Positions 669-14,665 of a stretch of 14,665 nucleotides of DNA are shown here, one piece after another. How positions within the stretch are numbered: position 1 is the stretch's first letter; the number at the start of each line of letters is the position of its first letter. The notes under the pieces were generated by a model. The model had not been told where the DNA came from, did no database searches, and saw only the letters and a list, made by a program, of their open reading frames with translations. This stretch comes from Fibrobacter sp. (lineage in GTDB: Bacteria; Fibrobacterota; Fibrobacteria; Fibrobacterales; Fibrobacteraceae): the NCBI GenBank assembly GCA_017520105.1, contig JAFWRL010000253.1, forward strand, positions 1-14,665, written 5' to 3'. Position numbers and translations under genes: made by a program.

Positions 669-782
669 TAAAACTTAACTGGATGGGGCTACGCCCCAAC
701 TCTTTGGCTCGGTTATGCCCATGCAAGCATGGTCGCAACACTCGCCTTCTGAGTTGTCTTCCACCTTCGGTGTCAGGATGAC
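669..782 (-). repeat. GTCATYCTGA-family intergenic repeat, copy 2 (inverted)
   Basis: Read on the minus strand this begins GTCATCCTGA and runs to AAGTTTTA. It aligns along its whole length with the plus-strand copy at 4098-4217. Shared blocks are GGAAGAC, AAGGCGAGTGTTGC, ATAACCGAGCCAA and GCCCCATCCAGT. Between these blocks the bases differ, yet both copies can fold: CACC-GAA-GGTG here against CGGC-GCCA-GCCG there, and CCATG-CTTG-CATGG here against AAAAATGAG-TTCA-CTCATTTTT there. A third hairpin, GGGGC-GTA-GCCCC, is nearly constant. It encodes no plausible protein. Confidence 0.8.
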
Positions 783-796
783 AATTTTAATTATGA

Positions 797-821
797 CGTT
801 CGGGAAACCGAGCGTTTTTTT
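797..821 (+). terminator. Rho-independent terminator after ilvN
   Basis: The 7-bp stem CGTTCGG/CCGAGCG (with one G-T pair) closes a GAAA tetraloop and is followed by seven T residues at 815-821. It should end the ilv transcript and separate it from the lipoprotein genes. The remaining gap (822-950) is AT-rich. A weak promoter candidate (TTGCCT, 17 bases, TTTATA) lies near 849-877, but it matches the consensus poorly. Confidence 0.9.
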
Positions 822-950
822 GCATAAATCATTCGAAAGCTGTTGTTTTTGCCTCCTCAACGTAAAAATTATTTATAGCTCAAAATTCTACCCTAGCAGA
901 TCAAAAGTAAAGTATTTTATAAGAGGCGTAATGGGAGAAGGAGCTTTGTT

Positions 951-1607
951 TTGAATATCGAAAAGAAAAAAGTCGAGAGGCGCACAAAACTTTCGTCCAT
1001 CGCCAAAAAAGCAATCGCTACATCGCTTGGAATAGTTACATCGGTAACAATATTCGCTTGCGACGGGGATATGTCAACGGATCCCACGTCAGATACAGTA
1101 CCAAACGGCCCGACAAAAGAAAGCTCCGACAGCCAACAAAATTTTTCTTCTAGCAGCAAATACCTTGACATTTCACAAAGCCATGAAGCCATCAGCAGCG
1201 AAATTCTCGAAGCACTTTCGTCAGCAGCCGAACCCGCGAACAGTCCCGCAATAGTCCCAGCGTCTTCTGAAGCACAGCCCGCAAGCAGCTCCGCAAACGC
1301 CCTCTCCTCCGCCGAACAGCCCGCAAGTACCTCGGCCACCCCGGTTAGTTCCGCAACAGTTCCGCCAAACCTATCTTCAAGTTCTTTTAAATTTGGAGAC
1401 ACCCTCCCTGATTACCAAGAATGTCCTCCCCCATTCCCTTCTACCGATCCCTGCAAATGCGTTCCAGACGGAACCACAGTAAAGTATCAAACCGAATTCG
1501 GAGTTCAAGTCATCATATGCCCCCAATCGTCATCGAGCTATAGCGGCGACGGATTTACATTCAGCAATGTCACGACTTCGAACGCGACGAAATCATTGCT
1601 TAAATAG
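951..1607 (+). CDS. Serine-rich lipoprotein, candidate radical SAM substrate (paralog 1)
   Basis: I do not recognise a named family. The start is TTG at 951, supported by AGAAGGAG seven bases upstream and by alignment of its N-terminus with the next two genes. All three begin M-x-IEKK-x-V, have a long basic n-region, then a hydrophobic stretch ending in a lipobox. Here that is IFA-C37, so the protein should be lipidated and exported by Sec. After it comes a low-complexity Ser/Ala/Pro region (about 40-140) with the shared block DISQSHEAISSEILEALSSA. The C-terminal part differs from its paralogs. It holds four cysteines (ECPPP, CKC, IIC) and ends SNVTTSNATKSLLK, which keeps the VTT seen in the others. 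It lies upstream of two paralogs and a radical SAM gene on the same strand. Product localisation is fairly safe; the role as maturase substrate is inferred. Confidence 0.82.
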   Translation: MNIEKKKVERRTKLSSIAKKAIATSLGIVTSVTIFACDGDMSTDPTSDTVPNGPTKESSDSQQNFSSSSKYLDISQSHEAISSEILEALSSAAEPANSPAIVPASSEAQPASSSANALSSAEQPASTSATPVSSATVPPNLSSSSFKFGDTLPDYQECPPPFPSTDPCKCVPDGTTVKYQTEFGVQVIICPQSSSSYSGDGFTFSNVTTSNATKSLLK

Positions 1608-2444: not shown

Positions 2445-2999
2445 ATGAAAATCGAAAAGAAAAAAGTCATCGGAAGTTCAAATATTAGCAGCATCGCCAA
2501 AAGCGCGTTTGCTGTCGCTTTGGGGATTACAACTGTCAGCATGACCGCTTGCGAAGATCCCTCATCGGCTTTGCGTAACGATAACGAACCCGATATCAAC
2601 AATTCTAACGATACCGCTGTAAGCAGTTCTAGCGAGGAGCAGGCGCAGTCCAGTTCCAGCAAAGTTATCGACATACCCAAAAGCTATGAGCATTACAGCA
2701 GTTCCGCCATCGAAGCGCTTTCTTCGGCATCGCAACCAGTATCACGCCCTATCAGTTCTTCAATAATATCATCCGGCATACCTCACGTTTATTCATCACC
2801 AACCGTTCCGCCAAGCAGTTCAAGTGCCAACGACGAAATCATCAAGAATAATCCAGAAATTGATTTGACGCCTATCCCAACCGATTTCCCTGCAATCAAA
2901 GACTCGCTTATTCGCATTCACCTTTGTGAAGACCCCAACAGTCCGGGATGCCTCATCGAAAGCATGGTCACCACCTTAGAAACAAACGATATCGCATGA
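2445..2999 (+). CDS. Serine-rich lipoprotein, candidate radical SAM substrate (paralog 3)
   Basis: The protein has 184 residues and begins MKIEKKKV. The n-region shares SSIAK with paralog 1, the hydrophobic stretch is AFAVALGITTVSM, and the lipobox is MTA-C36. A Ser-rich linker contains IPKSYEHYSSSAIEALSSA, the block shared by all three. The C-terminus has two cysteines seven residues apart (HLC and GCL) and ends SMVTTLETNDIA. The stop codon TGA overlaps the ATG of the radical SAM gene as ATGA, so translation of the two is likely coupled. This is the strongest contextual link between these lipoproteins and the maturase. No strong ribosome site precedes the ATG at 2445, which starts 9 bases after the end of paralog 2. 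The function of the mature protein is unknown. Confidence 0.87.
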   Translation: MKIEKKKVIGSSNISSIAKSAFAVALGITTVSMTACEDPSSALRNDNEPDINNSNDTAVSSSSEEQAQSSSSKVIDIPKSYEHYSSSAIEALSSASQPVSRPISSSIISSGIPHVYSSPTVPPSSSSANDEIIKNNPEIDLTPIPTDFPAIKDSLIRIHLCEDPNSPGCLIESMVTTLETNDIA

Positions 3000-4093
3000 A
3001 CCTAGTCCTTTGCCTTACAGAACAGTGTAATTTACGCTGCACTTACTGCTATTACAAAGAGACGCAGGCTGACCGCAAAACGGTCATGGATGATGCTACG
3101 CTCGAACAGGCGATTCGTATCGCGCTCAAACGCACGATTTACTTTAAACAACAGTATCTGAACATCACGTTCTTTGGGGGGGAGCCGCTTTTGCGAAGAG
3201 ACGCCATTTATAAAGGTGTCGAATTCGCAAAGGCGGTTGTCGATGAAGCCATAGACGAAGGCAAAATTTCAAAAAATTTCAAGTTGCAGTTTGCCGTCAA
3301 TACGAACGGCACGCTATTCGACGATGAATTTTTCGATTTTTGCGAAAAGGAACATTTCTGCATTTACCTTTCGCTCGACGGCCCGGAACATCACCACGAC
3401 ATCGCCCGCCGAACTGTAAGCGGGACTGGCAGTTTCAAGGCCATCGAAAAGAACATTCCTCGTTTTGTAAAACTCGGCGCGGTAGCATTAAGCACAATTA
3501 CGCGTCCACATATCGAAACTGTTTTCGAGAGCGTCAAATGGCTGCACGAACAAGGATTCCAGAGCCTTACCACAAGCGTCGATTTTGATGGCAAATGGAG
3601 CGGAGACGATTTTGACAGGCTTGCCTTGCAATACCAGAAAATGGCAAAATATTGGAAGGAATGCCGCGAAAAAGGCGATAAAGTCTTTATCGGAACGATT
3701 CATGACAAGGTAAAGCTGGCTCTTATAAATTCGCGTTACAGGCTCTATTCTTGTCACGTCTATAATGGAGCGGTCGGCGTAGCCACAAATGGAAACATTT
3801 TCCCCTGCACGCGATTTATCACCTCAAACTCAAACACCCGTTACGTGCAGGGGAATGTCTTTACCGGATTTGATGAAGCTGCTTGCGAAGAAATCCGTGA
3901 ATTTTTGGATAGCGACAAAAAAGAATGCGAAGGTTGCGATATCCGTTACCGTTGCTGTGCGCATGAATGCGCCTGCACATCGTTCTATACGACAGGCAGT
4001 ATCGAAGGCGTTTCGCCCGAAGTCTGCACGCACGAACGCATGCTGAGCGAAATCTGCGATACGCTACTGGAGCGTTTAGATAGTAGAACTTAG
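2996..4093 (+). CDS. Radical SAM/SPASM peptide maturase
   Basis: This is a radical S-adenosylmethionine enzyme of the SPASM subfamily, the group that holds anaerobic sulfatase maturases and RiPP maturases. The 365-residue protein opens with the 4Fe-4S site C11-x3-C15-x2-C18 within LTEQCNLRCTYCYY, then GGEP at 61-64, which contacts SAM. The C-terminal SPASM region has C253, G266-x4-C271, then C311-EG-C314-DIRYR-C320-C321-AHE-C325 and C344, enough ligands for two auxiliary clusters. The ATG at 2996 overlaps the preceding lipoprotein stop. The frame extends upstream to 2948, but that would lie inside the neighbour and before the conserved start. The substrate is inferred to be the three lipoproteins just upstream. 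An anaerobic sulfatase maturase is the main alternative, but no sulfatase is nearby. The stop codon lies inside a 9-bp direct repeat that brackets the following repeat element. Confidence 0.93.
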   Translation: MNLVLCLTEQCNLRCTYCYYKETQADRKTVMDDATLEQAIRIALKRTIYFKQQYLNITFFGGEPLLRRDAIYKGVEFAKAVVDEAIDEGKISKNFKLQFAVNTNGTLFDDEFFDFCEKEHFCIYLSLDGPEHHHDIARRTVSGTGSFKAIEKNIPRFVKLGAVALSTITRPHIETVFESVKWLHEQGFQSLTTSVDFDGKWSGDDFDRLALQYQKMAKYWKECREKGDKVFIGTIHDKVKLALINSRYRLYSCHVYNGAVGVATNGNIFPCTRFITSNSNTRYVQGNVFTGFDEAACEEIREFLDSDKKECEGCDIRYRCCAHECACTSFYTTGSIEGVSPEVCTHERMLSEICDTLLERLDSRT

Positions 4094-6010: not shown

Positions 6011-7660
6011 TTACAGACGAATGGTCTCGTCACAAATTGCACAAACCGCTGTGCGGTGCGTCACAAAAATCATCGTTTTTTCAGGGAATGCCGCAAACAA
6101 ACGTTTATACAGTTCCGTTTCGGTTCCCTCGTCCAACGAAGAACTGATTTCGTCGAAAAGCAAAATGTTTCCCGGACGTAAAAGACCGCGGGCAATCGCA
6201 ATGCGCTGGGCCTGTCCCTCACTCAAACCACGTGCGCGTTCGCCAAGTTCAAAATCAATTCCGCCGGCAAGGTCAAGTACGAAATCCGCACAGGCCACAT
6301 GCAACGCATTTTTCATTTCCGACTCGCTCGCTTCCGGATTTGCCAACAGCAGATTGTCACGGATGGAGCCGTTCATTAGAGTGTTCCCTTGCGGCACATA
6401 GACGAAATTCGGGCGGGTCGCTTCGGAAATTGCAACGTTCTTTCCATCAACGTCATCTTGAGAAACTTTGCGACCTGAATAAATCTGCATTTTCCCGGAG
6501 GCCGGTTCGACAAAGCCGAGCAAAAGCCTGAAGAGCGTCGTTTTCCCTTTGCCGGTCTCCCCCATGATGGCCGTTTTGCTAGCGGGCTTAAAGTCATGGG
6601 AAAAATCGGCGACAATTTCGCGGTCGCCATTGGCGTAAGCAAAGCGGACGTTTTCCAATTTCACGCCCAAACGACCGTCCAATACGACATCAGGAACGCG
6701 CTCACGGTTGCCGCACCCAGCTTCAAGTTCATCCAGGCGGTCGATACTCGCCGTTGAATGCACCAGTTGCGGGACCATCCCAAGCAAGGTAAGAATCGGA
6801 TGCTGGATTTGCCCCACCAGCTGCAAGAAAGATGACATCACGCCGAACGTAATCGTTCCGTCGCGGAGTCCTAGACCGCCCCATACAAAGGCAAGCAAAT
6901 AGCCAAGACCAAAAGCAGAACCAATCGCAAAACGGGCGACGGCGGTAAAGCGGGTACGGCGCAGCACCTCATGTTCAAGTTTGTCCTGTTTAAGGTTCAA
7001 ATGTTTTGTTACCCAGTTTTCGCTTTCAAGCGAACGCAACACCGCATTGAATTCGACGCCTTCCTGCACCTGCATCTGGATTTTGCTTTCGCTTTCACGG
7101 ATGGCAAGCGTCATCTTCCGCAACCTGCGCGAAATCAACTTGCCAATCACGACCATCACGGGTGTAATCAACAGCAGTGCCCACGCAAGGCGAGCATCAA
7201 ACCAGCGCATGAGCATGAACGCACCGACAAGCTGAATCATGGTCACGGCCATCTGCGGAATCGTATCCATCTCGGAGTTACTGATGTTTTCAATATCCTT
7301 GGATAGCCTTGACGTAACGTCGCCCGAATGGAGTTCGTGACCGTCAAAAAGTTGACGCCTGAACAACGTCTCAAAGTAGAATAACCTAAGAGCGTTCGAC
7401 TTTTTGACCGTGGCGGCATTCGTCATGTAATAATATACAAGCCGCAGAATAATCACCCCGACCACAGTCGAGACAAGCAACAATATCATACGAACAACAT
7501 CGTCCGATGAACCTGTGCGAATCGTCTCGTCGATAAAGCGCTTGCTCAGCCATATCATCAAAAGACCGAGCGCCACACGCCCAGTCCCTAACAGAACGCG
7601 GATTGCGATGTTTACACGGAACCCACGCGTTCCACGCCATAGCCAGGCGATATAGTTCAT
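6011..7660 (-). CDS. ABC transporter, fused membrane and ATPase domains (peptide exporter type)
   Basis: This is a half-size ABC-B-type exporter of 549 residues that should act as a homodimer in the inner membrane. The N-terminal 300 residues hold about six membrane segments. The ATPase domain shows Walker A GETGKGKTT (about 365-373), the signature LSEGQ (about 478), Walker B ILLFDE (about 499) and the H-loop THR (about 531). There is no N-terminal C39 peptidase domain, so leader removal must come from another protein. I chose the ATG at 7660 because it overlaps the upstream stop codon as ATGA. The frame extends to 7747, but that adds an unlikely Cys/Arg-rich stretch inside the neighbour. It is the last gene of the seven-gene peptide operon and most likely exports the mature product. 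Export of something else, such as a lipid, cannot be excluded. Confidence 0.93.
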   Translation of the reverse strand: MNYIAWLWRGTRGFRVNIAIRVLLGTGRVALGLLMIWLSKRFIDETIRTGSSDDVVRMILLLVSTVVGVIILRLVYYYMTNAATVKKSNALRLFYFETLFRRQLFDGHELHSGDVTSRLSKDIENISNSEMDTIPQMAVTMIQLVGAFMLMRWFDARLAWALLLITPVMVVIGKLISRRLRKMTLAIRESESKIQMQVQEGVEFNAVLRSLESENWVTKHLNLKQDKLEHEVLRRTRFTAVARFAIGSAFGLGYLLAFVWGGLGLRDGTITFGVMSSFLQLVGQIQHPILTLLGMVPQLVHSTASIDRLDELEAGCGNRERVPDVVLDGRLGVKLENVRFAYANGDREIVADFSHDFKPASKTAIMGETGKGKTTLFRLLLGFVEPASGKMQIYSGRKVSQDDVDGKNVAISEATRPNFVYVPQGNTLMNGSIRDNLLLANPEASESEMKNALHVACADFVLDLAGGIDFELGERARGLSEGQAQRIAIARGLLRPGNILLFDEISSSLDEGTETELYKRLFAAFPEKTMIFVTHRTAVCAICDETIRL

Positions 7661-7926
7661 TCGATCACGTTGACCTTTTGCCATTCGGCAACGATTGCGG
7701 CGACATCGGCTTTTGCCTGTTCCGCACAGACATCGTATTCGCCACACAAGGCTTCGGCCAGTTTATCGGCCGTAAAATCGCCCATGTCGCAAGCCTTTTG
7801 CCAAAGCCAGGCTGCGGTTTCGTTCAAGCAAAGGAGCTTGCCAAAATCAAGTGCACCGACACCTTCACCCATGATAACCTGTTCGCCGCACACTTCGCGC
7901 AACACAAATCCATTCTTTATACGCAT
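7657..7926 (-). CDS. PqqD-like peptide-recognition protein
   Basis: This small protein (89 residues) belongs to the PqqD family, which forms the RiPP recognition element that grips the leader of a precursor peptide and presents it to modifying enzymes. It shows the usual pattern: MRIKNGFVLREVCGE, then LNETAAWLWQ, a helix with a DFTADKLAEAL stretch, and a C-terminal helix ending in a short tail. The start at 7926 leaves one base after the upstream stop. The frame extends to 8097, but that part overlaps the peptidase gene and lacks family similarity. It overlaps the ABC gene by ATGA. In lasso-peptide clusters the equivalent B1 protein recognises a YxxP motif in the leader, and the 42-residue peptide at the head of this operon carries YQKPKM. 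The partnership is therefore inferred from context and motif. Confidence 0.88.
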   Translation of the reverse strand: MRIKNGFVLREVCGEQVIMGEGVGALDFGKLLCLNETAAWLWQKACDMGDFTADKLAEALCGEYDVCAEQAKADVAAIVAEWQKVNVIE

Positions 7927-7927
7927 A

Positions 7928-8389
7928 TTAATGAACCTTTCTATAAAGCCAAAGAAAATACCGTCTAAAAGGTAGCAAAGCAAACCAGATTTTTGCAGCC
8001 AAACGATATCCAAACGAGTTAATCGAGCACTTTTTGCCGTTTCCACGCACCACCTGAACGACCTTGGCAAAGACATCGACCTTATTACAATATTCACGTA
8101 AAGCCAAATTACCGTCGCCCATCAGAATCACGTGGTCGCCATCCAAAGAAAGTACTCGGTGTACAACATAGAACTTGTCTTTCGATTTTCCATTTTCGAC
8201 AAGGGCAAGAACAATGTCTCCCCTTCGTAAATCCGTCGGTTTTTCCAAAACCACGCTATCGCGGCCTCCGACAATGAACGGCAACATGCTTCTACCGTTT
8301 ACAGGGAACGTGACGCTTACACCATCCGAAACGAGCCGAATCGCTTCTGCTATAATGGCGCTGTCATCAATTTTTCGAGGGTCGCTCAT
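7928..8389 (-). CDS. S24/S26 signal-peptidase-like serine protease
   Basis: The 153-residue protein has the S24/S26 fold. Its marks are GRSMLPFI with the nucleophile S34, RGDIV at 56-60, VVHRV with H77, and MGDGN at 90-94. The position normally held by the general-base lysine of bacterial signal peptidase I is histidine here, as in the SipW/Sec11 type, so a Ser-His dyad is likely. A hydrophobic C-terminal segment (about 130-150) could associate with the membrane. Both ends fit the operon: the start overlaps the kinase stop by ATGA, and the stop is one base before the PqqD start. The probable job is to cleave the leader of the operon peptide, since the exporter lacks a peptidase domain. This is inference; the cleavage site is unknown. 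Confidence 0.85.
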   Translation of the reverse strand: MSDPRKIDDSAIIAEAIRLVSDGVSVTFPVNGRSMLPFIVGGRDSVVLEKPTDLRRGDIVLALVENGKSKDKFYVVHRVLSLDGDHVILMGDGNLALREYCNKVDVFAKVVQVVRGNGKKCSINSFGYRLAAKIWFALLPFRRYFLWLYRKVH

Positions 8390-9294
8390 TCAGCCACCGT
8401 CTTTAGGCAAAGTTTCGCGGCGGCCTCGTCAGGCAGACATTTTAAGTACCACACGGGAACATTTGCAGCAAGAGCATTCTCGGTATTGTGCAACCCGTCG
8501 GCAATAGAGCGTTCCCAACGCTTTCCAGAAATGCAAGGGAGAATTGCAGCATAAGCCTGCACCCCGCGCAAACGGGAAATTTCGTTAAAAGGAGCCTGGG
8601 AAAGCAGCACAAAACCACCTAGTTCACATTCCTCGTTTTTGTAACAGGGCGTCTTTCCACTCCAGGGCGAACCGAAAACTTTCGCAAAGCCCTTGCCGTC
8701 CGCCGTCCTGTAGCATCGGACTACAGGATTGTCATCGTTCAAAAGCGTCGAACCTTCATTGTACTTGAGCCAAAGCCTTGCATGCGTACTCTTGCCGGTT
8801 CCACTTTTTCCAAGGAACATGTAGCCGCGATCTTGATAGTTCACCACCGCCGCATGGAACAGCGCTGTATCAAATGGTGCCGTCGCAATCGCATATAGTA
8901 CCATCAGGGCGTTGTTCACCGCAAATTTGAGGTAAGATGTATTCTCGCTGTCTGGCACAAAAAGCTTTGCCGTTTTATAGTCTTTAGAGCAAACTAATGT
9001 TCCGACATATTTATCGAACAGATAAAATTCAAAGAGCGATTCTCCATGCTGCGTAATACCGCATACAATCCGCTGACCTTCCTCTTCTTGCCTAGTTTCT
9101 TCGACAAACACGGGAGCTTTTGCATCCGTGACAACATCCATCGAAAAAAGGCAATCGCATGCACTTACTGAAAAAGGGGCGTAGTTATCCGCATTTTTTT
9201 CAAAAAAATCATCGCTAAGCCCGGCATTTGCCGTTAGCGAAAACACATGGTCTGCAACCCTGTAATATCGGGTCTCTTGAACAGATAAACTCAT
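8386..9294 (-). CDS. HprK-like P-loop kinase associated with RiPP clusters
   Basis: This 302-residue protein is related to HPr kinase and PEP carboxykinase-type P-loop enzymes. It shows Walker A GKSGTGKST (162-170), LFHAAVV just before it (H148), LLNDDNPVV (D187, D188) and GSPWSGK (208-214), all family marks. The N-terminal 120 residues are a variable domain. True HPr kinases regulate carbon use, but this form sits in a peptide operon. Relatives in some lasso-peptide clusters (for example paeninodin) phosphorylate a serine of the peptide tail, which is the best guide to function here. The ribosome site AGGAAG lies eight bases before the ATG. The start overlaps the upstream nucleotidyltransferase stop, and the stop overlaps the peptidase start, each by ATGA. 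Candidate target residues in the operon peptide are S31 and S35. Confidence 0.87.
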   Translation of the reverse strand: MSLSVQETRYYRVADHVFSLTANAGLSDDFFEKNADNYAPFSVSACDCLFSMDVVTDAKAPVFVEETRQEEEGQRIVCGITQHGESLFEFYLFDKYVGTLVCSKDYKTAKLFVPDSENTSYLKFAVNNALMVLYAIATAPFDTALFHAAVVNYQDRGYMFLGKSGTGKSTHARLWLKYNEGSTLLNDDNPVVRCYRTADGKGFAKVFGSPWSGKTPCYKNEECELGGFVLLSQAPFNEISRLRGVQAYAAILPCISGKRWERSIADGLHNTENALAANVPVWYLKCLPDEAAAKLCLKTVAE

Positions 9295-10397
9295 AAAGCA
9301 ATCTTCCTACGTTTAATACGGAGCGGTATCACAGAAATAGTCGCCCGCCAATATTTTAATTCTTTAAATATTGCATTGATTGGGTCAAACGGAATCCAGC
9401 TTAACGCTCTTAGACGGTCCTTGAACCAACGGACAAAAACGTTGATGCGCGACTGGTGTTTCGGATCGTACTGACCAAAATTTCCGCCATCCAAAGCCAG
9501 TTTCATGAGCTTTTTCCCGCGCCAAGCATCTGGAGGGCAAAGCATCAAATCACGGTCGAGTCCAAAGATTTCTTCGAGCATCCACATGACGGCACTGCAA
9601 GCTTTGAGCATGTAAAGCGATTTCATTATATCGGCTACTTCACGTCGGTCGCTTTCTGAGGAATGCTTCAGCAAAATGAAGTAGTCCATGAATTGACGAA
9701 ATCCAAGACCCATGCTGTAAAAATGCTGCTGCAAATGCGAAAGCTGCATGACAAGGGCAAACTTGATAGTTGGCGAATAAAATCCTTCCGGGACGAGTTC
9801 CGAGTTCAGAATTTCCTTGTTCAAGTACTTTTGAAGTTCTCCGTTCTTGTACGGGTTCCCGGATGCCGGCTTATAGTGGATTTCCACAGTGACGCCATCC
9901 TCGTTCTTCGGCATATGAATATGATGACGACATGAAGTCTCTTCATGTTCCGGGATAAACTTCAGTTTTAGAAGCAATTCTTCGACACTTTTGAATCCAC
10001 CTTCAACCCAGAAATCGATGTCACCGCACTGGCGACTCAGCGGGTCTGGGTAAAGCCTAGCATTTGCAGCGCCCTTCAAGACTGCTGTACGCCGCCCTTC
10101 TTTACTAAAAATCTCGGTCAAGCGAGCCGCTTCCGCATTCATGCGTTTGTTCATGTCGCGGGTCGCTTCGGCATGGGCAGCCCAGTGCATCAGCAACGGC
10201 TTTGGCGGAAGATTTTCCTTGGGAAGCTTTTGAAAAACAGTAAAAACCACATCCAGAACAGACTGCCGTTTGGCCTCGAGGAAAAGCTTTTGCCATTCTA
10301 CAGGTGTCAGTTTTATGGTCGGAGTATCAACGCTCCCAACAGCACAGCGCAAAAAACTAAACAGAACTTTATAAACGGGATAAACTAAATCGGACAT
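9291..10397 (-). CDS. Nucleotidyltransferase family protein (second of a tandem pair)
   Basis: This 368-residue protein has the nucleotidyltransferase fold of the uncharacterised NTP_transf_5 type. Residues 104-134 hold TAVLKGAANARLYPDP and then CGDIDFWVEGG, with D126 and D128 as the metal-binding pair. VEIHYKP near 171-177 supplies the likely third acidic residue (E172). The C-terminal 170 residues are mainly helical and end in a basic stretch (LRIKRRKIAL). It aligns end to end with the upstream neighbour and is a diverged tandem duplicate. No clear ribosome site precedes the ATG. It overlaps the kinase start by ATGA. Proteins of this type accompany kinase-bearing lasso-peptide clusters, but the substrate is not settled; adding a nucleotide to a peptide or to a phosphorylated residue is a guess. 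Confidence 0.86.
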   Translation of the reverse strand: MSDLVYPVYKVLFSFLRCAVGSVDTPTIKLTPVEWQKLFLEAKRQSVLDVVFTVFQKLPKENLPPKPLLMHWAAHAEATRDMNKRMNAEAARLTEIFSKEGRRTAVLKGAANARLYPDPLSRQCGDIDFWVEGGFKSVEELLLKLKFIPEHEETSCRHHIHMPKNEDGVTVEIHYKPASGNPYKNGELQKYLNKEILNSELVPEGFYSPTIKFALVMQLSHLQQHFYSMGLGFRQFMDYFILLKHSSESDRREVADIMKSLYMLKACSAVMWMLEEIFGLDRDLMLCPPDAWRGKKLMKLALDGGNFGQYDPKHQSRINVFVRWFKDRLRALSWIPFDPINAIFKELKYWRATISVIPLRIKRRKIAL

Positions 10398-10423
10398 ATT
10401 GAAAAAATAGAAATTACGGTTTA

Positions 10424-11536
10424 TTATACGTTGCGAACAGAAAGTCGGCGGTACTTGATGCGGAGCGGCATGTAGCGCATAAAGCTTCTCCAGTAGTCAA
10501 TTTCATGCAGTATAGCCTCTATTGGAGAGAATGTAATCAAGCGAATCAAGCTATATCGGCGTTTTAGCCATGTTATAAAATGAGAAGTCTGTTTTTTGGG
10601 ATTGTATCCGAAATTTCCACCAGCATTTATTTCGGCAAGCATCATCTTGCCGCGGCGTTTGTCAGGCTTGACAAGCATTTTTTCGGGAGACAGTTCAAAG
10701 ACATATTCCATAATCCACATCACTGCACCACAAGACTTGTATAGTCCAAACGACTTAAGCTTGGATACGACTTCATTGCGGTCTTCGAGCGAAGAATTAC
10801 GCAAGAGAATGAAGTAGTCCACCAGCTGCTTGAATCCAATGCCGTCTTGAAAGAAATGTTTTTGGATATGTGAAAGCTGCATTATGAGCGCAAACTTCAT
10901 CGAAGGTACATAAAAGCCTTCGGAAGTAGGTTCCAAATTTAAAATTTCACGTTCAAGATAACTTAGCAAACGTTTTTTTGCGAATGGGTTGAAATTTCCA
11001 GACGACGGTCTGTGATGAACTTCTACAATAATTCCATTTTCGTCTGGTTCCAAGCAAATATGATGCTGTGCCCTAAGGCACCTGTCGCTTAAGGCGAAAT
11101 CCAATTCACCCAAAAGAGCAACAACGCTATCACGCCCGCCTTCGACCCAGAGGTCAATGTCGCCCGCCTGCCGCATATAAGGGTCTGGGTAAAGCCTTGC
11201 ATTGGCAGGTCCCTTGAGTACGGCGGTTTTGCGGTTATGTGCGGTAAAGAGCTGCGTGAGATGTGCAGACTTGCTGTTCAGTTGCTTGTTCTGGCCCTTG
11301 ATGACTTCCACTTCACTTGCCCATTGATAAATGAGCTCCATTGGCGGTTTCTGTTCCTTAGGCAAATGGCAAATTGCACGATACGCAACTCCAACCATAA
11401 GCTGCCTGAGACACTCCATATGGATGGTTTCCCATTCCGTTTCGTTCAGACGATACGGAAATAATGATGGCCTGCATTCAGGGTCAAGGGCCATTCGTAG
11501 GAGCGCGTATAATACTTTATTTTCGAAATTTGCCAT
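10424..11536 (-). CDS. Nucleotidyltransferase family protein (first of a tandem pair)
   Basis: The protein has 370 residues and the same layout as its downstream paralog. It shows TAVLKGPANARLYPDP then AGDIDLWVEGG with D126 and D128, and VEVHHRP near 171-177. Both copies keep every catalytic residue I can identify, so both are probably active rather than one being a relic. The ends are also alike (PLRIKYRRLSVRNV here). The start is 33 bases after the stop of the 42-residue peptide and lacks a clear Shine-Dalgarno site. An in-frame TAA lies shortly upstream, which fixes the ATG at 11536. The 26-base gap to the next gene is AT-rich and holds no obvious signal. The two copies may act on different residues or form a heterodimer; the sequence does not say which. 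Confidence 0.87.
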   Translation of the reverse strand: MANFENKVLYALLRMALDPECRPSLFPYRLNETEWETIHMECLRQLMVGVAYRAICHLPKEQKPPMELIYQWASEVEVIKGQNKQLNSKSAHLTQLFTAHNRKTAVLKGPANARLYPDPYMRQAGDIDLWVEGGRDSVVALLGELDFALSDRCLRAQHHICLEPDENGIIVEVHHRPSSGNFNPFAKKRLLSYLEREILNLEPTSEGFYVPSMKFALIMQLSHIQKHFFQDGIGFKQLVDYFILLRNSSLEDRNEVVSKLKSFGLYKSCGAVMWIMEYVFELSPEKMLVKPDKRRGKMMLAEINAGGNFGYNPKKQTSHFITWLKRRYSLIRLITFSPIEAILHEIDYWRSFMRYMPLRIKYRRLSVRNV

Positions 11537-11569
11537 TGTAGGGTGACAAGTCCGCTTTAAGGATTTTCA

Positions 11570-11698
11570 TCAGTTATCAATAACTATACCCATTGAATCC
11601 GGCAGACTCGTTGGCTGCATAAGCTTGGACTGAACCTTTAACGGATGAACCTTCATCTTGGGTTTCTGATAGCATTTTTTTTCGACTTTTTTAAGCAT
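11570..11698 (-). CDS. Candidate RiPP precursor peptide, 42 residues
   Basis: This short gene encodes a 42-residue peptide. It starts MLKKVEKKCYQKPKMKV, continues HPLKVQSKLMQ, and ends PTSLPDSMGIVIDN. The first 28 residues carry nine lysines and the pattern YxxPxM at 10-15, like the YxxP leader motif that PqqD-type proteins bind in lasso precursors. The remaining 14 residues are neutral to acidic and could be the core, with Thr30, Ser31 and Ser35 as possible modification sites. AAAGGA lies five bases before the ATG, and a near-consensus promoter lies about 40 bases upstream. It is the first gene of the operon, directly ahead of the nucleotidyltransferases. No homology test was possible, but ribosome site, promoter, position and motif agree. 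The cleavage site is not known; I place it near residue 28 only because charge and composition change there. Confidence 0.8.
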   Translation of the reverse strand: MLKKVEKKCYQKPKMKVHPLKVQSKLMQPTSLPDSMGIVIDN

Positions 11699-11738
11699 GT
11701 TTTTCCTTTGTTACCACAAGGGCCATAAAAACGAAACA

Positions 11739-11766
11739 ATTATAAAAAAAATAAGAAAAATGTCAA
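11739..11766 (-). promoter_or_regulatory. Sigma-70-type promoter of the peptide operon
   Basis: On the minus strand TTGACA (11766-11761) and TATAAT (11744-11739) are separated by 16 bases. Both boxes are perfect matches to the consensus. Transcription should start near 11732, leaving a leader of about 34 bases before the peptide start codon. It is by far the best promoter visible in the window, which implies strong basal expression unless a repressor acts. Confidence 0.87.
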
Positions 11767-14059: not shown

Positions 14060-14417
14060 TGGAGGTGAGGAGAGTCGAACTCCTGTCCAAAATCACGTCC
14101 ATGTACGTTCCTACAAGTGTTCCCTTCGAATTTAAGATCTCGTCTTATCCACGCCCAAGAAGGTCGGCGCGGAGTTTGACCAGCCTAGTAAATCTCGGGA
14201 GATGCCCCCAGGCATGACACTTCCCTATCCCATATTGCGTCCGGACGTACACCCCGATGGGAGCGAGATGAGGCCCGGCGTTGCCGTTAATTAGGCAGCG
14301 AGTGCGTAGTTTTCGTCAGCACTTATTTTTTTTCAGACTTTTTAACGAGTTGCCCTCGTCTGAGACCTCGACTTGCAACTAACACTTCGGTAACCCTGTC
14401 GAAACCAAGGCACCCCC
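14060..14417 (-). ncRNA. ssrA: Transfer-messenger RNA (tmRNA)
   Basis: tmRNA frees ribosomes stalled on messages without a stop codon and tags the unfinished protein for proteolysis, with SmpB as partner. The 5' end GGGGGTG (14417-14411) pairs perfectly (one G-T) with CACCTCC (14067-14061) to form the acceptor stem, followed by discriminator A at 14060. The CCA end is not encoded. The T-arm GGAGTTCGACTCTCC lies near the 3' end. The tag reading frame at 14320-14291 reads ADENYALAA and then TAATTAA. The length of 358 bases is normal for a one-piece tmRNA. The last 15 bases of a hairpin repeat overlap its 5' end. No clear promoter was found within the 248 bases upstream. Confidence 0.96.
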
Positions 14418-14517
14418 TTGTGTTCTACACAAGGGTGCTCGGTTGAGACAGGCCTGTCGATTAAATGCGAGCTAGCGAGCATTTAAGCTCTTGAGAACGC
14501 ATGCGTTCGAAAGACCC
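14403..14517. repeat. Multi-hairpin tandem element, copy 1 (overlaps tmRNA 5' end)
   Basis: Read on the plus strand, this holds a row of hairpins. The first has outer pair AACC/GGTT and inner stem CCCTTGTGT/ACACAAGGG. The second is the palindrome GACAGGCCTGTC. The third is TTAAATGC/GCATTTAA around GCTAGC. The fourth is GAACGC/GCGTTC inside CTT/AAG. In the second to fourth, the stem or palindrome is flanked by GA on both sides. It aligns with the copy at 14556-14665. The first 15 bases are shared with the 5' end of tmRNA on the other strand. A further hairpin (CAAAATT/AATTTTG with inner CTGC/GCAG) at 14523-14553 separates the two copies. Confidence 0.78.
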
Positions 14518-14555
14518 GGAGGGCAAAATTACTGCGAATAGCAGGAATTTTGGCA

Positions 14556-14665
14556 AACCAAAGCACCCCCGGTGCTTGCACCGGGGGCGCTCTGGTTGAG
14601 ACCCGTCGATTAAACGCGACCTTAAGGAGCGTTTAAGCCTTTGAGAGCGTAAGCTCGAAAAGCCC
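14556..14665. repeat. Multi-hairpin tandem element, copy 2 (runs to the window edge)
   Basis: This is the second copy of the same element. Its stems are AACCA/TGGTT, CCCCCGGTG/CACCGGGGG, TTAAACGC/GCGTTTAA around CTTAAG, and GAGC-GTAA-GCTC inside CTTT/AAAG. The stems differ in sequence from copy 1 but still pair, and the GA flanks are kept. The final stem closes a GTAA loop, a GNRA-type tetraloop if the plus strand is the RNA. Read on the minus strand it contains GGGGGTGCTTTGGTTT, nearly the first 16 bases of tmRNA. More copies may lie beyond the edge. Confidence 0.75.

Follow-up and report, generated by a model that had tools for sequence, protein, structure and literature searches.

Linear polyphosphorylated peptides (LPP) were described by Popov et al. 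in May 2026 as products of Bacillota, a phylum to which they are said to be restricted (PMC13381572). In that system phosphates appear on core Ser3 in dependence on the kinase LppK, the acceptor lying, by our own count, 18 residues past the Tyr of the leader; a S3T mutant is not phosphorylated. The S26-type peptidase LppS, which requires S29, H68 and D93, cleaves with the aid of a RiPP recognition element (RRE; RiPPs are ribosomally synthesized and post-translationally modified peptides), while N33 and D70 of LppB hold the YxxP leader. Deletion of the nucleotidyltransferase (NT) gene lppN had no detectable effect, and what LPP do in the cell is, as their discoverers state, not known (PMC13381572). 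Here we describe a similar operon in a 14,665-nt stretch of Fibrobacter sp. DNA (assembly GCA_017520105.1, contig JAFWRL010000253.1, forward strand), hereafter the window, the region analysed being 6011..11766. Fibrobacter is a genus known for rumen fibre breakdown (PMC6851124).

The operon runs on the minus strand in the transcription order precursor peptide, NT1, NT2, kinase, S26-like peptidase, PqqD-type RRE and ATP-binding cassette (ABC) protein (Table 1). In our view the operon is probably LPP-like, maturing and exporting the precursors that it contains and, in related genomes, many others encoded elsewhere. Its genes are those of the LPP core set, represented by lpp of Paenibacillus alginolyticus: a S26/SipW-like peptidase with Ser-His-Asp, a discrete RRE, a HprK-like kinase, a NTP transferase and a MsbA-like exporter, with no cyclase. 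A YxxP leader, a conserved Ser after the leader and a variable C-terminal part are likewise common to both. The peptidase has S34, H77 and D92, compared with S29, H68 and D93 in LppS. When the LNxT and DV motifs, and not the LppB sequence itself, are aligned, N35 and D74 of PqqD are the counterparts of LppB N33 and D70 (PMC13381572). A previous sequence-only reading of the window had proposed a RiPP-type cluster with a kinase, NTs, RRE, S26-type peptidase and exporter but without a cyclase, and this is borne out; its suggestion of a new RiPP class did not hold, the kind being already published as LPP.

NT1 and NT2, 45% identical to each other, both belong to Pfam family PF14907, and a NCBIfam scan gave no family name for either; a NT cluster was present in 26 of 37 sequences, the window among them, with 0–2 NT genes per locus. 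The RRE protein matched PF05402, N35 and D74 being invariant in 21/21 sequences. In the ABC protein, ABC_membrane and ABC_tran scored over the Pfam cut-off and a peptidase domain was absent; many exporter models, MsbA among them, matched below cut-off. Also below cut-off were the matches of the kinase to the HprK C domain (E 0.022) and of the peptidase to S26 (Pfam, E 4e-4). Residues H147, K168, D187 and D188 of the kinase were invariant in 26 aligned sequences, and S34, H77, R78 and D92 of the peptidase in 19/19. Since sequence searches of PDB were uninformative (the kinase profile had no match, S26 matched LexA at E 0.02 and PqqD matched TfuB1 at E 0.019), structures of the kinase and the peptidase were predicted. 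Foldseek paired the kinase model (pLDDT 91.7) with PEPCK (E 6.6e-8) and HprK/P (E 6.6e-6) at TMq 0.3–0.5; PEPCK and HprK have a common fold. The peptidase model (pLDDT 81.8) matched LexA (E 8e-4) and, more weakly, signal peptidases, human SPC-A among them (E 4.8e-3). The predicted structures point to HprK and S26 folds, with low whole-chain TM-scores. Two relatives of the kinase, 555 and 567 aa long (P0001 and P0002), carry PF07475 together with PF27840 and are perhaps tandem or fused kinases; PF27840 occurs in nearly all listed kinase relatives, yet our Pfam scan did not report it for the kinase of the window.

Kinase, NT, PqqD-type B1 and ABC exporter are also common to kinase-bearing lasso-peptide clusters (PMC9266682, PMC7533575), among them those of paeninodin and pseudomycoidin, and the four invariant residues of our kinase are the His-Lys-Asp-Asp set named for lasso-peptide kinases (PMC9266682). 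The YxxP leader is shared with lasso clusters as well (PMC12710340, PMC13381572). A lasso cluster with its cyclase and transglutaminase-like protease at another genomic site would account for these likenesses. The Fibrobacter operon differs from paeninodin and pseudomycoidin in having neither macrolactam cyclase nor transglutaminase-like B2, and in an acceptor predicted near the leader end, compared with their C-terminal Ser (PMC9266682). A search for a lasso cyclase elsewhere, the check named in the sequence-only reading, found none in 41 genomes of the genus, a set that does not include the window's own assembly. PF13471, the lasso B2 protease, matched 0/41 genomes, whereas the same model was positive in 2/14 controls. 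PF00733, the macrolactam cyclase, gave partial matches in 37/41 genomes; none of the 55 listed covered more than 82 of 354 positions, the frames being 244–558 aa long, and they presumably represent ATP-binding-loop enzymes rather than Asn-synthetase-like cyclases. By eye, the cores contain no Asp/Glu at a fixed distance, and when 425 rumen genomes were surveyed, lasso clusters turned up in Firmicutes only (PMC7533575). We therefore rejected the lasso reading, which we regard as extremely improbable. A defence system was rejected as well, PADLOC giving no match for five operon proteins. HprK_rel_A/PqqD and SynChlorMet ScmC/ScmD (TIGR04352, TIGR04249, TIGR04248) matched weakly, with 12.6–16.9 bits against cut-offs of 100–200; unlike those systems, the Fibrobacter operon has no radical SAM or exosortase gene.

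The 42-aa open reading frame (ORF) at the head of the operon looks like a genuine gene because it has a RBS-like (ribosome-binding-site-like) AAGGA, relatives in the compared stretches L021, L022 and L024, and a genus-wide family (L-numbers denote sequence stretches compared with the window, G-numbers compared genomes). The family was collected by searching 36 sequences for small ORFs with [YF]xxP and a RBS-like stretch; L025, part of the same contig as L022, was omitted. Of the 28 rows obtained, one, a 58-aa ORF of the window at 778-954 (+), was discarded as a chance match. The remaining 27, with one L035 peptide added, form the 28-row alignment A1, from which a second L022 peptide is absent, having failed the filters. 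Tyr and Pro of YxxP are invariant in 28/28 rows, which is partly built in, 27 rows having been chosen by [YF]xxP; a Ser 20 residues past the Tyr (+20) was no criterion. At E <= 1e-4 the A1 profile found precursors in 74/80 genus genomes and 75/167 genomes of the phylum, the match beyond the genus being in G165, from another genus of the same family. At E <= 0.01 it found them in 36 of the 41 genomes used for domain scans, with up to 13 per genome spread over many contigs. Most precursor genes of the related genomes lie apart from the operon, and many follow genes that encode surface-type proteins.

Conservation was measured on 56 representatives below 60% identity, drawn from 143 unique sequences (A1 and 120 of 159 matches). 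Mean pairwise identity was 0.43 over the leader (Y0-L17), 0.74 at +20 and 0.08 beyond. The +20 residue is Ser in 48 and Thr in 3 representatives, i.e. Ser/Thr in 51/56, and the family follows the motif KKxYxxPx[ML]xVVxxxxQxxLLxxS. From the Ser on, the cores of 110 sequences have a median length of 18 residues and contain 372 Asp/Glu against 65 Lys/Arg in 2129 residues. As judged from the aligned sequences, a conserved leader followed by a variable core is the pattern of a RiPP precursor, with one retained acceptor-like Ser at the border.

We then compared the occurrence of kinase and precursor. A strong kinase match was present in 71/80 genus genomes, compared with a patchy distribution in LPP (PMC13381572). 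Kinase and precursor occurred together in 70 of these genomes, kinase only in 1, precursor only in 4 and neither in 5 (Fisher test, P-value 3e-5, with kinship ignored, eight weak kinase matches and G032 at E 1.6e-24 counted as absent, and unlisted genomes taken as negative). Short C-terminal tails of a family of large proteins, described below, were present in 75/80 (E <= 1e-6). SprA (TIGR04189), the translocon of the type IX secretion system (T9SS), exceeded its cut-off in 12/12 genomes, precursor-bearing or not. Two genomes that are both 99% complete, G015 and G127, have neither kinase nor precursor and retain SprA; G127 has no tail and G015 a single weak one (E 2.6e-6). Precursors track the operon and short tails largely do so, while T9SS itself is independent of it. 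In three genomes of genus g18 of the family (G156-G158), tails were found at E about 1e-12, with no listed kinase or precursor match.

The same enzymes could modify and export a lipid or polysaccharide, with kinase and NT acting on a sugar and the small ORFs being unrelated. LPP clusters lie in capsule loci (PMC13381572), and of the Fibrobacter loci read L047 does adjoin polysaccharide-type genes, its operon being preceded, as judged by eye, by glycosyltransferase-, polymerase- and flippase-like genes. Divergent cassettes in L056 (G032, with a chain-length-determinant-like gene) and L131 (Butyrivibrio, with pssD/pssE) have similar surroundings, and the ABC protein matches MsbA-type models, albeit below cut-off. 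However, L047 alone has such genes beside the operon among nine loci with neighbours examined, and the precursor family, with its leader/core pattern, tracks the kinase across genomes. We thus hold this explanation to be quite unlikely.

Outside the genus, the phylum yielded one strong kinase match (G165) and a further eight that were weak (E 1e-7 to 1e-13). When proteins were searched with the kinase profile, at least 7999 of 8000 candidates passed; such a saturated search says little on distribution beyond the genus, and the few organisms named among the 120 listed are Fibrobacter. Cassettes of kinase, S26 and PqqD with 27–37% identity were found in Prevotella oral taxon 299, Phocaeicola massiliensis and Butyrivibrio fibrisolvens, that of Prevotella (L129 8863-10507) having the same kinase-S26-PqqD order as in Fibrobacter. 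Peptides and tails beyond the phylum were searched for in three plasmid-collection records, one from each of Prevotella, Phocaeicola and Butyrivibrio. Prevotella oral taxon 299 encodes, beside a lipoprotein-like gene, a 65-aa peptide with YLAPTIAVFDIVENNYLLAAS (L132 1486-1683, E 0.012) and, elsewhere in the record and not adjoining the peptide, a weak tail (E 3e-6). In Butyrivibrio a 59-aa ORF with YVKPEL adjoins PqqD (E 0.037) and no tail was found; the Phocaeicola record gave neither peptide nor tail. The precursor-tail link was thus not seen outside the Fibrobacter family in these three records. A divergent, partly masked cassette of NT-like gene (by eye), kinase, PqqD and S26 lies at 2221-9453 of L056, where it adjoins the chain-length-determinant-like gene (also by eye); its genome, G032, has neither precursors nor tails of this family.

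The large proteins mentioned above (287–1284 aa, most with signal-peptide-like N-termini as judged by eye) are encoded near the operon in 20/37 sequences, and at 11 loci their stop codon lies 0–19 bases ahead of a precursor start. Twenty further stretches (from G004, G006, G030, G001 and G020) contained 15 precursor rows, 12 of them behind such a protein (315–2662 aa) and the other three, all from G001, without one; 8 of the 20 gave no precursor row under the filters. What the large proteins have in common is a short C-terminal tail. Trimmed to 46–54 residues, its 22-row alignment (A4) has invariant G12, G25 and R26 and nearly invariant D22, G36 and Y38. The layout agrees with the description of short T9SS signals, with motifs B, D and E at the extreme C-terminus. 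Likeness to the short-CTD T9SS cargo of Prevotella intermedia, in apparent motif B (DLxGR), motif D (GxY) and motif E (a basic C-terminus), was judged from the described motifs, not by aligning the sequences of that report (PMC11969387). The Fibrobacter tail gene differs in being often followed by a LPP-like precursor, a link not mentioned in the sections of that report consulted here. Pfam analysis of six tail proteins revealed adhesin-type repeats in two of them, with PF09479 in two and GLUG in one.

Pairing was analysed in 8 of 19 genomes, a pair being a tail followed by a precursor at most 350 bases downstream on the same strand. A precursor follows 42/56 tails, with 3–131 bases between the profile matches, and 54/67 precursors have a tail upstream. 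Most exceptions come from G001, treated below, and from G020, where 5/13 tails and 3/13 precursors are unpaired. This adjacency hints that the peptide and the surface-type protein work together. The tight spacing and frequent adjacency to tail genes could also mean that the small ORFs, rather than being RiPP precursors, help in translating or secreting the upstream protein, with YxxP arising by chance. Yet they share leader and Ser with precursors inside the maturation operon, their presence tracks the kinase, and SprA is found in genomes with or without them. We give the helper explanation little chance.

For an LPP-like system, processing might proceed as follows. PqqD would bind the YxxP leader, and the kinase would add one or more phosphates to the conserved Ser/Thr 20 residues past the leader Tyr. 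Where present, the NTs may extend this phosphate by a nucleotide or sugar. Aided by PqqD, the S26-type Ser-His-Asp peptidase would cleave near the LLxx/Ser junction, and the ABC pump would export a linear, mostly acidic core. Because many precursor genes stand directly behind genes with short T9SS tails, the peptide, once exported, probably works jointly with the neighbouring protein at the cell surface. Phosphorylation and RRE-assisted cleavage are proposed here by analogy with the Bacillota LPP; processing in trans, NT chemistry, the cut site and the surface role are what we infer for Fibrobacter. Tentatively, and with more doubt than confidence, we suggest that Fibrobacter provides many of its short-tail T9SS surface proteins with a small RiPP precursor of their own. 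One operon would phosphorylate, trim and export every precursor, perhaps also tagging it with a sugar or nucleotide, and the mature phosphopeptide would serve the adjoining surface protein as a dedicated partner, linker or anchor.

The peptides might instead be released as antibacterials or signals, the neighbouring genes encoding receptors, immunity or carrier proteins and not decorated partners. Hypervariable cores, many paralogues per genome and absence from some near-complete genomes (G015, G127) agree with such a role. On the other hand, the neighbours are proteins of 287–2662 aa, two of six having PF09479 repeats and one GLUG, and no small immunity-like gene family was noticed among the locus gene clusters, where no dedicated search was made. 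Release seems to us rather unlikely.

Several observations weigh against an LPP-like system linked to surface proteins. The Fibrobacter system is so far a prediction from genes and modelled structures. The window precursor has Thr-Ser at +20/+21, unfavourable given the behaviour of LppK on the S3T mutant, and it is preceded, 214 bases off, by an unrelated 137-aa gene and not by a tail protein. The operon precursor of the window's nearest relative, G001 (58% of words in common, the highest among the genomes compared), likewise has no tail protein ahead, and 5/8 tails and 6/10 precursors of that genome are unpaired. G063 has a kinase but neither precursor nor tail, and four genomes (G019, G027, G126 and G141, 71–90% complete) have precursors without a kinase match. 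Kinase, S26, PqqD and ABC occur together in 27/37 sequences, L022 and L025 being a single contig; kinase alone was seen in L049 and L050, and only kinase and S26 in L038-L041. No NT match was found in L044-L046, L051, L053, L054 and some other stretches. Finally, the LPP motif YxxPxVLxHQxIxFETxxS is unmet beyond Y, P and a downstream Ser, with VL, HQ and FET lost (PMC13381572). Because the cluster departs both from the precursor motif as published and from the confinement to one phylum, we did not file it as a member of LPP.

We conclude that the Fibrobacter cluster is probably an LPP-like variant in another phylum. It differs from LPP in belonging to Fibrobacterota and not to Bacillota, with similar cassettes in two Bacteroidota records, in having up to 13 precursors per genome, mostly off-operon and many behind short-T9SS-tail genes, and in the number of NT genes, 0–2 in the loci read (PMC13381572). 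LPP-like machinery is thereby extended beyond Bacillota, and its arrangement suggests a layout of one maturase and many precursors. Cluster-based genome mining would miss such a layout because most precursors lie off-operon. The surprising part is the tie between precursor and tail protein: the peptide may be a partner, linker, anchor or ligand, or the two genes may only be expressed together. If true, the surface-partner reading would make the RiPP part of cell-surface architecture rather than a released natural product. The many precursors tied by gene position to surface-type proteins offer a testable lead on the role of linear phosphopeptides. A literature search, chiefly of freely accessible papers without bioRxiv preprints, returned no report of a link between T9SS and RiPP precursors; for the gene set in Bacteroidetes it returned a lasso survey and no precursor-tail link, and the papers listed for RiPP precursors in Fibrobacter did not show that link either.

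Read directly in the sequence, the operon agrees with the sequence-only reading in its seven head-to-tail genes, in the ATGA overlaps of NT2/kinase (9291-9294), kinase/S26 (8386-8389) and PqqD/ABC (7657-7660), in the one-base gap (position 7927) between the S26 stop and the PqqD ATG, and in a consensus promoter ahead of the operon. The starts of PqqD and ABC were placed later than in the automatic ORF list, where they are too early, to suit the operon. The promoter-like site, of sigma-70 type, has its downstream edge 40 bases ahead of the precursor start codon. Between 5900 and 11900 there are 13 sites with at least 9/12 matches, where shuffled sequence gives a mean of 7.3, and this is the sole 12/12 site. 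It is retained in L021, and in L024 just the –35 hexamer is. L021 (yak reticulum) and L022, both from Fibrobacter metagenome-assembled genomes, contain kinase relatives with 93–95% identity.

Table 1. Features of the operon region in window coordinates.
Feature	Position	Strand	Basis
Promoter-like site, TTGACA-16-TATAAT	11739..11766	-	12/12 hexamer matches
Precursor peptide gene, 42 aa, MLKKVEKKCYQKPKMKVHPLKVQSKLMQPTSLPDSMGIVIDN	11570..11698	-	Family alignment A1 and relatives
YxxP leader motif, Y10-P13, predicted RRE-binding site	11660..11671	-	Y and P invariant in A1
T30-S31, predicted phospho-acceptor, +20/+21 from Tyr	11606..11611	-	Inference from Ser/Thr conservation
NT1, nucleotidyltransferase	10424..11536	-	PF14907 E 6.3e-43
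NT2, nucleotidyltransferase	9291..10397	-	PF14907 E 3.7e-45
HprK/PEPCK-type kinase, predicted peptide kinase	8386..9294	-	Invariant residues and predicted structure
S26B-type peptidase, predicted leader peptidase	7928..8389	-	Invariant residues and predicted structure
PqqD-type RRE	7657..7926	-	PF05402 E 1.6e-11
ABC exporter, MsbA/type-I-like, without peptidase domain	6011..7660	-	PF00664 and PF00005 over cut-off

Elsewhere in the window, a GH8 glycoside hydrolase gene (PF01270; 4313-5917, minus strand) weakly matches a longer C-terminal sorting-type tail (PF18962, E 0.019), and the precursor pattern search gave no row beside it. Three Ser-rich lipoprotein-like ORFs with alike starts (IEKKxV) lie on the plus strand at 951-1607, 1738-2436 and 2445-2999. 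They are followed by a radical SAM/SPASM enzyme (2948-4093, plus strand), the best NCBIfam match of which is the PapB ranthipeptide maturase, with 214 bits against a cut-off of 340. This block, which L021 and L022 retain in full and L024 in part, could form another RiPP-type system, distinct from the operon, that works on surface lipoproteins. A tmRNA gene with the tag ADENYALAA lies at 14060-14570 on the minus strand.

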